Shown in pieces: positions 19,783-22,638 of a DNA stretch of 64,000 bases. How positions within the stretch are numbered: the first letter of the stretch is position 1; every line of letters starts with the position of its first letter. The stretch lies in the NCBI GenBank assembly GCA_036395115.1, contig DASWDU010000005.1, positions 62,001 through 126,000 on the forward strand. Reading direction: 5' to 3'. The stretch comes from Thermoplasmata archaeon (GTDB lineage Archaea > Thermoplasmatota > Thermoplasmata > RBG-16-68-12). The notes beneath the pieces are model-generated. The model was not told the DNA's origin. It saw nothing but the letters and a program-made list of their open reading frames with translations, and searched no databases. The translations under genes and the position numbers were made by a program.

Positions 19783-22638
19783 ATGATTTCGGAGCGGGAG
19801 ATCCTCGATGTCCGCGAGCCGCCGGGCAAGGCGATGGGCAAGGTCGCCGAACTCTGGAGGTCGGTCGAGGGCACGAACAAGATCATGTGCACCGCGTGCG
19901 CGCGGTACTGCAAGATTGGCGAAGGCCAGGTCGGACTCTGCGGGATCCGCGGCGTGCACGAGGGGAAGCTCTGGCTCTATGTGTATGGGCGCGTCATCAC
20001 GGGCCACGTCGATCCGATCGAGAAGAAACCCGTGTCACACTGGCGGCCGGGATCGAAGATCTTCAGCATCGCGACGACCGGGTGTAATTGGCTCTGCCAC
20101 CCGGCGGGAACCCCGATTTCGCTCCTCGACGGAGACACGAAACCAGTCGAGGAGGTCGTCGCGGGAGACATCCTCAAGTCGTTGGACACCCGTGATCGGG
20201 TCACGCTGCCGGCCGTTGTCACTGCGGCGGGCAAACGGAAGGCCGCCTCTTTTCGTGTGTCGGTGAATGGCCTTCAGGACCCTTTCTTCGCCACCCGAGA
20301 GCATCCTGTCCTAACGCCGATCGGATGGCGGCCCGTGGAGAGTCTGAAGCCAGGTGACGCAGTCCTCATCTCCCGAGGGACGACAACTCGGATTGCCCCT
20401 CCCGCTAAGTCAATCCCGATCCCTGATCATTCTACTTCAATTCACCCTGAGGCAACCTCGCGGTTCTTGAGGGAGTGGCACGGTTTCTCCGGTAGTGCAA
20501 CTCGGTATGACTGGGCGACCGTCCGCTCGGTCCGGTCAGAAGCCCCCCTGGAGCAAGTGTATAGTTTCGAGTGCGTTCCCTTCCATAACTACGTCGCTGG
20601 ACACGTCGTCGCCCACAATTGCCGCTATTGCTTCCTCCCGGGAACTCGTGTATTGACCGACGAGGGCCACGTCGAGATTGATCAGCTCTTTCGCGAGGCG
20701 CGGCCTACGGACGATCCTGAAATCCGAATCGTTTCCGAGCGACTCGCCCTGACCCATCGGGGACGCTGGCGACAGATCCGGAAGGCCTTTGAGCATCTGT
20801 ATTCCGGTCCGGTTCTCCGGATCCGGCCATTCTACCTACCCGGATTCGAGTGCACGCCCGATCATTCGGTGTTTGCGTCGATCGGAGGTGGCCGTGTAAC
20901 CAAGGTAGAGGCGCAAAAACTCCGGGTGGGCGATTTCCTCGCTGTACCTCTGCCGAAATCGAGCCGAGAGGATCCTCTGGATGTCGAGAAGCTTCTGCGT
21001 AGCGAGAATCAGCCCTCGTATCGCAGGGGTGGCGACTTACAGAGGGTCCATGGCCGTGTCCGGCGTTCGGCGGAGCGTGGACTCGGGGTGCCCGCTCTTC
21101 TCCATATCACGCCACGCGTGGCACGCCTGTTCGGGTACTACTGCGCCGAGGGATCGCTCGCTTGGGCGCAGAGAAGGCCGAACAGCGGATCCGTGTGGTT
21201 CAGTTTTGGCGCAAGCGAGGAAACTCGAATTCGCGAAGTGGAGAAAATCCTGAGAGAGGTCTTTGGAGTTCGTCCACGTCGGGTTCGACAGAAGAACCGG
21301 ATCGCGGTCATCGCTCCCGGGGCCGGCCTCGCGAAGATTTTTCACCGTTCTTGCGGCGACTCAAGCGCGACCAAACGAGTGCCCGATTTCATCCTTCAAT
21401 CCACGAACCGGCGAGTTCTGAAGGCCTTTCTCGCGGGGTATCTCAATGGGGACGGCTACGTTACCAAAGGCAAAGGTGGATTCGTCCTCGGCAGTACTTC
21501 CGTTTCTCCGGTCCTCACCTATGGAATCGCGCAGATTCTCTTGACGCTGGGCGAAGTACCACGAGTCTATCGCTCCCACAATGACCCACACTACGAGATC
21601 GAGGGTCGGACAGTCAACCGCTCGGACGACTATATGATGCGGCTCCTTGTTGACGAGGTAGAGGTGACTCCACAGGAAATCGAATGGCAAGCGTCGGAAG
21701 CGCGTGTCGTGCGACGGAAGGGCCATCTGCTCATTCCGATCCGAGAGATATCCCGCTTCGACTACGTCGGCCCGGTCTACAACATCGAAGTGGATGACGA
21801 CCACAGTTACACCTCGAACTTCATGGCTGTCGCCAATTGCCAGAACGCGGATATCTCCCAACGTCGCAAGGTCGAGGGCATCGAGGTCGAGCCGCAAGAC
21901 GTCGTCCGCATGACGCTCGAGCAAGGCTGCCAAGGCCTCGCGTACACCTACAACCAGCCGACGATCTTCATCGAGTTCGCGCGGGACATCGGCATGATGG
22001 CCCGGAAGGCAGGGCTCATCAACATTTTCGTGTCGAACGGGTACGACACCCCGGAGACTGTCGCGGAGATGCCGAAGTTCCTCGACTGCGTGACGGTGGA
22101 CTTCAAGGGATCCGGCGAGACGAACTTCGTCCGCAAGTACATCAACATCCCGAACGCGGACCCGATCTTCCAGACGCTCCTCGACACGCGAGACACGAAG
22201 AAGATCCACATCGAGATCACGGACCTCATCGTACCGCAAGTCGGCGACAACCTCGATGCTGCCCGCCACCTGTCGAAATGGGTGTACGACAACCTCGGTC
22301 CCGACACCCCGATCCACTTCTTGCGGTTCCACCCGGACTACAAGATGATGGAGTTCCCCTGGACGCCCGTCGAAACGCTCGAGAAGCACTGCGCGGTCGC
22401 GAAGGAGGAAGGCCTGAAGTACGTCTACATCGGGAACATGTCGGGCCATCGGCTCGAGAACACGTACTGCCCGGGCTGTGGTGCGGTCGCGATCAAGCGG
22501 TACGGGTTCGACATCACCGGCTGGTACCTCGACAAGGACAACAAGTGCAAGAAGTGCGGGTACCAACTCGCGATCTTCGGCCGGCTCGAGCGCACCGCGA
22601 AAGAGAACCGCTTCTACAGCGTGCTGTACCACCGCTGA
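19783..22638 (+). CDS. AmmeMemoRadiSam-type radical SAM enzyme carrying two inteins
   Basis: 951 aa precursor; about 373 aa after removal of two inteins, matching the family length. Host segments: N-terminal zinc/cysteine module MCTACARYCKIGEGQVGLCG (residues about 35-55), DPIEKKPVSHWRPGSK, then the radical SAM cluster motif spread over Cys101, Cys280 and Cys686. The C-terminal part has CPGCGAVAIKRYGFDITGW and CKKCG, the family zinc ribbon. The enzyme should bind a 4Fe-4S cluster and SAM; its substrate in the AMMECR1/Memo/radical SAM system is unknown. No Memo or AMMECR1 gene is nearby. The host CxxxCxxC motif is assembled only when both inteins leave. Start ATG 19783. Confidence 0.93.
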   Translation: MISEREILDVREPPGKAMGKVAELWRSVEGTNKIMCTACARYCKIGEGQVGLCGIRGVHEGKLWLYVYGRVITGHVDPIEKKPVSHWRPGSKIFSIATTGCNWLCHPAGTPISLLDGDTKPVEEVVAGDILKSLDTRDRVTLPAVVTAAGKRKAASFRVSVNGLQDPFFATREHPVLTPIGWRPVESLKPGDAVLISRGTTTRIAPPAKSIPIPDHSTSIHPEATSRFLREWHGFSGSATRYDWATVRSVRSEAPLEQVYSFECVPFHNYVAGHVVAHNCRYCFLPGTRVLTDEGHVEIDQLFREARPTDDPEIRIVSERLALTHRGRWRQIRKAFEHLYSGPVLRIRPFYLPGFECTPDHSVFASIGGGRVTKVEAQKLRVGDFLAVPLPKSSREDPLDVEKLLRSENQPSYRRGGDLQRVHGRVRRSAERGLGVPALLHITPRVARLFGYYCAEGSLAWAQRRPNSGSVWFSFGASEETRIREVEKILREVFGVRPRRVRQKNRIAVIAPGAGLAKIFHRSCGDSSATKRVPDFILQSTNRRVLKAFLAGYLNGDGYVTKGKGGFVLGSTSVSPVLTYGIAQILLTLGEVPRVYRSHNDPHYEIEGRTVNRSDDYMMRLLVDEVEVTPQEIEWQASEARVVRRKGHLLIPIREISRFDYVGPVYNIEVDDDHSYTSNFMAVANCQNADISQRRKVEGIEVEPQDVVRMTLEQGCQGLAYTYNQPTIFIEFARDIGMMARKAGLINIFVSNGYDTPETVAEMPKFLDCVTVDFKGSGETNFVRKYINIPNADPIFQTLLDTRDTKKIHIEITDLIVPQVGDNLDAARHLSKWVYDNLGPDTPIHFLRFHPDYKMMEFPWTPVETLEKHCAVAKEEGLKYVYIGNMSGHRLENTYCPGCGAVAIKRYGFDITGWYLDKDNKCKKCGYQLAIFGRLERTAKENRFYSVLYHR
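20095..20619 (+). mobile_element. Intein 1: mini-intein without endonuclease, inserted before cluster Cys 2
   Basis: Precursor residues 105-279 (175 aa). It begins with Cys105, block A CHPAGTPISLLDG; block B FATREHPVLT has the conserved Thr-x-x-His; the C-terminal block F EQVYSFECVPFHNYVAGH leads to block G VVAHN, with the canonical penultimate His and final Asn279. The next residue is Cys280, the second cysteine of the radical SAM cluster, which also serves as the +1 nucleophile. There is no LAGLIDADG pair and no room for one. The DNA is visibly richer in A/T than its neighbours. Confidence 0.93.
20629..21837 (+). mobile_element. Intein 2: full intein with LAGLIDADG endonuclease, inserted before cluster Cys 3
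   Basis: Precursor residues 283-685 (403 aa). It begins CFLPGTRVLTDEGHVEIDQL; block B is FECTPDHSVFA with Thr-x-x-His. The homing endonuclease has LFGYYCAEG (residues 449-457) and FLAGYLNGDG (549-558), with acidic residues Glu456 and Asp557 in the expected positions, so it may still be active. Block F is GPVYNIEVDDDHSYTSNFM, ending AVAN with Asn685 and +1 Cys686. The penultimate residue is Ala instead of the usual His. Only Cys280-Arg281-Tyr282 lie between the two inteins. Confidence 0.93.

Follow-up and report, generated by a model that had tools for sequence, protein, structure and literature searches.

Two inteins side by side in the cluster motif of an archaeal AmmeMemoRadiSam radical SAM enzyme

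Anatomy of the gene and its inserts

The window, a stretch of 64,000 nucleotides from a Thermoplasmata archaeon, carries on its forward strand a gene for the AmmeMemoRadiSam radical SAM enzyme (AmrS, TIGR04337). The assignment is based on the TIGR04337 score, 289 bits for the precursor and 317 bits (316.7) with the inserts removed against a curated cut-off of 220, and on the CxxxCxxC motif that the protein has once spliced. Two partners of the enzyme are encoded in the same genome, Memo (PF01875) on contig 18 and AMMECR1 (PF01871) on contig 46. The original prediction placed in this gene two inteins separated by three residues, and re-reading the window sequence confirmed the coordinates, residue numbers, and junctions of both inserts. 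The gene and its parts are as follows.

19783 to 22638, plus strand: AmrS gene; precursor of 951 amino acids, 373 without both inteins
19783 to 20094, plus strand: N-extein, residues 1 to 104, ending in GCNWL; Cys101 (codon 20083 to 20085) is cluster ligand 1
20095 to 20619, plus strand: intein 1 (site a), C105 to N279, a mini-intein of 175 amino acids without an endonuclease
20290 to 20313, plus strand: block B of intein 1, ATREHPVL, with T171 and H174
20422 to 20478, plus strand: helical linker of intein 1; relatives have a DUF559-type endonuclease at this position
20557 to 20619, plus strand: blocks F and G of intein 1, VYSFECVPFHNY...AHN
20620 to 20628, plus strand: three-residue extein Cys280-Arg-Tyr, the sole spacer between the inteins, 9 bp in DNA
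20629 to 21837, plus strand: intein 2 (site b), C283 to N685, 403 amino acids, with a LAGLIDADG endonuclease
20851 to 20874, plus strand: block B of intein 2, CTPDHSVF, with T358 and H361
21127 to 21156, plus strand: first LAGLIDADG motif, LFGYYCAEGS
21427 to 21459, plus strand: second LAGLIDADG motif, FLAGYLNGDGY
21775 to 21837, plus strand: blocks F and G of intein 2, VYNIEVDDDHSYTSNFMAVAN, with Ala rather than His as the penultimate residue
21838 to 22635, plus strand: C-extein, beginning CQNADISQ; the TIM-barrel part of the enzyme

Read across the junctions, the precursor runs from GCNWL (residue 104) into intein 1 (C105 to HN279), through C280-R-Y into intein 2 (C283 to AN685), and on to C686-QNADISQ. 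The mature cluster motif is Cys101-x3-Cys280-x2-Cys686. Cys280 is thus the +1 nucleophile of intein 1, the second cluster ligand, and position -3 of intein 2; in Cys686, the +1 nucleophile of intein 2 coincides with the third ligand. The dual role proposed for these two cysteines holds, and the claim that the motif needs the departure of both inteins follows from the anatomy. Third-position GC is 0.65-0.67 in the inteins versus 0.87-0.91 in the exteins, and relatives show the same direction.

The identification of both inserts as inteins is upheld by profile matches, a fold match, and orthologues with empty sites (that of G025 and those of many archaea), which read CNWLCRYCQN, the exact in-frame junction. 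Intein 1 matches the Hint_2 profile and, below the cut-off, Intein_splicing; single-sequence searches were weaker than for intein 2. An AlphaFold model of intein 1, with eleven site-a relatives as input, has a pLDDT of 87.5 and a pTM of 0.84. Compared with solved mini-inteins by Foldseek, it best matches NpuDnaB (4o1r; TM 0.89 by target, E 4e-9), and a Hint fold is predicted on this basis. The insert has the residues of an intein, namely C105, the TxxH residues T171 and H174, H278-N279, and the +1 residue C280, and the TxxH and HN of the site-a intein are invariant in 18 relatives. A class 3 intein at this site was considered from a conserved block F Cys and rejected, as the Cys is not at F:4 and the W and T of the WCT motif are absent; outside the window's order (L182) the block F Cys is not conserved. 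Sensing of zinc or iron by histidines of the linker was also rejected, since only one of the two is invariant across the 18 relatives.

Intein 2 matches Pfam Intein_splicing, the intein N- and C-terminal models, and, by sequence, PI-PkoII. It combines a Hint domain with C283 as Cys1, T358 and H361, N685, and the +1 residue C686; the penultimate His is absent. The LAGLIDADG_3 family (PF14528) is matched with 45.9 bits against a cut-off of 22.5, and both LAGLIDADG motifs retain acidic residues; site-specific DNA cleavage is a putative activity of this intein. In 15 relatives, Cys1, TxxH, and the final Asn of the site-b intein are conserved, and the intein ends in Ala-Asn or Ser-Asn, not His-Asn. 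The block F Asp is absent from both inteins. These departures, the penultimate His of intein 2 and the block F Asp of both, are site-wide among the relatives and thus look like variants, not damage. In an AlphaFold model of the whole precursor, the intein regions are confident, the extein regions are poor, and confidence is low at residues 280-282. By structure, this model comes closest to intein endonucleases (2cw7, TliVMA), to mini-inteins, and to pyruvate formate-lyase activating enzyme.

Distribution, gain, and loss among relatives

The original prediction proposed that inteins be sought at the same two sites in the AmmeMemoRadiSam proteins of other Thermoplasmatota. Such a search among relatives found them at both sites, patchily. 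The survey of the window's order comprised 37 genomes, among which G000 is the window's own. Nine species carry both inteins (G000, G001, G012, G014, G020, G021, G024, G028 on two contigs, and G029), five carry site a alone (G011, G013, G016, G017, and G030), and five carry site b alone (G015, G018, G019, G022, and G026). Both sites are empty in G025, G027, G003, G009, and G010; in G002, site a is occupied and the remainder of the gene is missing. The relatives include records named RBG_16_67_27 and DBS2-1.bin2 and several EA-series soil MAGs. Insertions at exactly these two points are seen in about thirty genomes, and insertion at the twin sites is far beyond chance. Across the phylum (390 genomes), no interruption of the motif was seen in full-length AmrS outside the window's order among the matches listed, and the partial matches examined are contig ends or fragments. 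A second archaeal order has the site-a intein in 7 genomes and the site-b intein in 3, with both together in none of those read; in the extein tree, two carriers from this order are placed beside Nitrososphaerota sequences.

Two occupied genes of the window's order are unusual. In G016 (L050), the site-a intein has Trp in place of Cys1 (codon TGG, which a single base separates from TGC), and the rest of the intein and the extein are intact. This could reflect a sequencing error, a dying intein, or a bypass mechanism or tolerated loss of splicing. In G021 (L047), in-frame deletions within both inteins leave them short (141 and 137 amino acids), which may be due to a collapse in assembly.

On the extein tree, the presence pattern requires at least 7 changes for site a and 8 for site b, and a single clade of site-b carriers is rejected (p-AU 1.3e-6). 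Neighbouring species have exteins that are 95-99% identical, and their same-site inteins are often only 40-60% identical. Between G000 and G018, the extein dS is 0.24 (131 codons), whereas synonymous differences in intein b reach 0.815 and are saturated; this gap argues for separate acquisition of intein b. The sequence comparisons thus indicate that site-b inteins move laterally. The pair G024 and G020 differs: the two genomes agree in both inteins, and the intein dS of 0.49 is close to the extein dS of 0.475, which points to vertical descent. The intein dN/dS in this pair is 0.15-0.18.

The inteins overall are under purifying selection (dN/dS 0.15-0.23), and the exteins are constrained more strongly, with a dN of 0.007 against a dS of 0.475 between two genes that carry both inteins. 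Since the exteins of intein-bearing relatives are 95-99% identical and strongly constrained, the precursor must mature. Selection on inteins and exteins alike thus suggests that splicing must work.

The nuclease regions differ by site. The full-length site-a inteins read all share one kind of nuclease region, which matches DUF559 or MTES_1575 in the 4 that were scanned. At site b, all full-length inteins belong to the LAGLIDADG type; Pfam shows this for the copy in the window, and alignment or motif shows it for the rest. Mini forms are known at both sites. Because the nuclease type is constant per site where present, the sites appear to be filled by unrelated, site-faithful lineages. LAGLIDADG enzymes are reported to recognise 14-40 bp (PMC8966425), and targets 9 bp apart should therefore overlap; each intein sits inside the expected recognition sequence of its neighbour. 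A search for phages as intein donors gave distant matches only (23-32% identity). Several archaeal AmrS first-site inteins (L039, L042, L182-L186, and L188) have an almost constant length of 353-355 amino acids and contain both a NUMOD-like stretch and an endonuclease of the DUF559/MTES_1575 type.

Origin of the arrangement and comparison with known inteins

It is highly probable that the gene hosts two unrelated, independently mobile inteins at adjacent cluster-cysteine codons, each lineage with its own nuclease and a history of repeated gain and loss, an account that needs no regulation. These sites would be used because their codons are almost invariant and provide the +1 Cys. Each site would have its own type of endonuclease (DUF559-type at a, LAGLIDADG at b); species with none, a, b, or both would result from recurrent gain and loss. 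Judged by residues and fold, each intein probably splices by an ordinary class 1-like route through Cys1, Asn, and the +1 Cys. The CRY spacer would keep the junction neighbours constant, with CRYC after intein 1 and CRY before intein 2 whether or not the other intein is present, so that either intein could leave first. The three cluster cysteines would be assembled solely after both inteins are gone, and the ligated peptide predicted after both splicings spans GCNWLCRYCQNADISQ.

An alternative is that the inteins travel together: cleavage of an empty allele by the endonuclease of either intein would lead to repair that copies both, and the mini-intein would hitch-hike. At a distance of 9 bp, a conversion tract from one site would take in the other. 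At most one intein has an endonuclease in the double carriers where this is readable, and the close pair G024 and G020 agrees in both inteins. Vertical descent, however, fully explains that pair, and once it is removed the similarities of intein a and intein b are not positively correlated (r = -0.65). Co-homing is also inefficient in Haloferax mcm (PMC10643990), and we consider joint transfer unlikely. A non-functional gene or an assembly artefact is scarcely credible. The Trp for Cys1 in G016 and the internal deletions in both inteins of G021 would fit it, but both inteins together appear in at least three separate records (RBG_16_67_27, DBS2-1.bin2, and EA_2), and the extein dN and dS between two doubles, given above, speak against a pseudogene. 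The original prediction had named a corrected assembly without the inserts as a possible refutation; this is rejected, because the same sites are occupied in separate records and species.

The original prediction also suggested that the arrangement couples enzyme activity to redox state, iron, or zinc. Developed into a mechanism, redox gating would act as a "two-key lock": under oxidising conditions, a Cys280-Cys283 disulfide would block both inteins, and the cluster of an oxygen-sensitive enzyme would wait for a reducing cell. A single bond could arrest both, since Cys280 serves intein 1 as +1 nucleophile and intein 2 as its partner at -3. By sequence, C280-R-Y-C283 supplies a Cys-3/Cys1 pair of the type found in MoaA, and redox control of the twin inteins is chemically plausible by this analogy. 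Yet the cysteines are dictated by the cluster motif, and this geometry comes free with site b. The disulfide is putative, the precursor model being weak at its residues 280-282, and close relatives manage without either intein. Redox gating thus seems improbable, and the proposal that the arrangement exists for such coupling is unsupported: enzymes that are 95-99% identical have none, one, or both inteins, which neutral or selfish elements fit better than an obligatory switch. The twin inteins look like two mobile elements settled side by side, not a proven control switch.

MoaA is a radical SAM protein. The P. abyssi enzyme is oxygen-labile, and its intein is reported to be controlled by a disulfide between extein Cys -3 and Cys1 (Callahan et al., 2011, as described in PMC10663303 and PMC3922620). 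The MoaA intein resembles the AmrS case in its radical SAM host and its Cys-3/Cys1 pair, which Cys280 and Cys283 could match; it differs in being a single intein in another enzyme with a demonstrated disulfide, whereas the AmrS pair is known from sequence alone. Like the AmrS inteins, MCM-a and MCM-d of Haloferax mcm are two independently mobile inteins with a patchy distribution and frequent transfer. However, they occupy separate sites in the helicase domain and both have LAGLIDADG nucleases, whereas the AmrS inteins are 3 residues apart with unrelated nucleases (PMC10643990). The double inteins of T. kodakarensis PolB and P. abyssi CDC21 lie 85 and 48 residues apart (PMC8966425), compared with 3 in AmrS. 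The families NF038136 (Rv2578c-type radical SAM) and NF045703 (Tes) include intein-containing radical SAM proteins whose intein parts match the AmrS inteins weakly; they are enzymes other than AmrS. Mycobacterial SufB and DnaB inteins also have Fe-S or essential hosts, with a response to oxidants proposed or shown, and differ in sites and mechanisms (PMC8891592; PMC6195587).

Among known inteins, those nearest to the AmrS pair are single ones in radical SAM enzymes and double ones with tens of residues between them. The open-access literature searched describes no intein pair as close as 3 residues and yielded no paper that treats inteins of AmmeMemoRadiSam proteins, which is not proof of absence. 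Relatives with none, a, b, or both in nearly identical enzymes form a natural set for asking if neighbouring inteins follow a set splicing order, if a single thiol pair can govern the two, and how two homing systems whose targets overlap hinder or assist each other.

Other inteins and Hint domains

Large, secreted-looking proteins of other Thermoplasmatota contain repeated Hint domains that start with C(C)FPAGTKI (L135, L136, and L140-L145). These tandem matches were rejected as twin inteins, being intein-like domains of multidomain proteins. In the window's own genome, further intein-like insertions lie on contigs 41, 12, 8, 47, 25, and 16, and their hosts, read by eye, are V-ATPase A, MCM, GyrA, ribonucleotide reductase (two), RpoA'', and RadA. 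Contig 46 encodes on its minus strand (L149) an ABCE1/Rli1-like protein with an intein of about 372 amino acids in its ferredoxin motif, inserted after CISCGI, beginning with Cys and ending in HN, and followed by CVRKCPF. The +1 Cys is again an Fe-S ligand, and this intein is present or absent across the relatives of the order.
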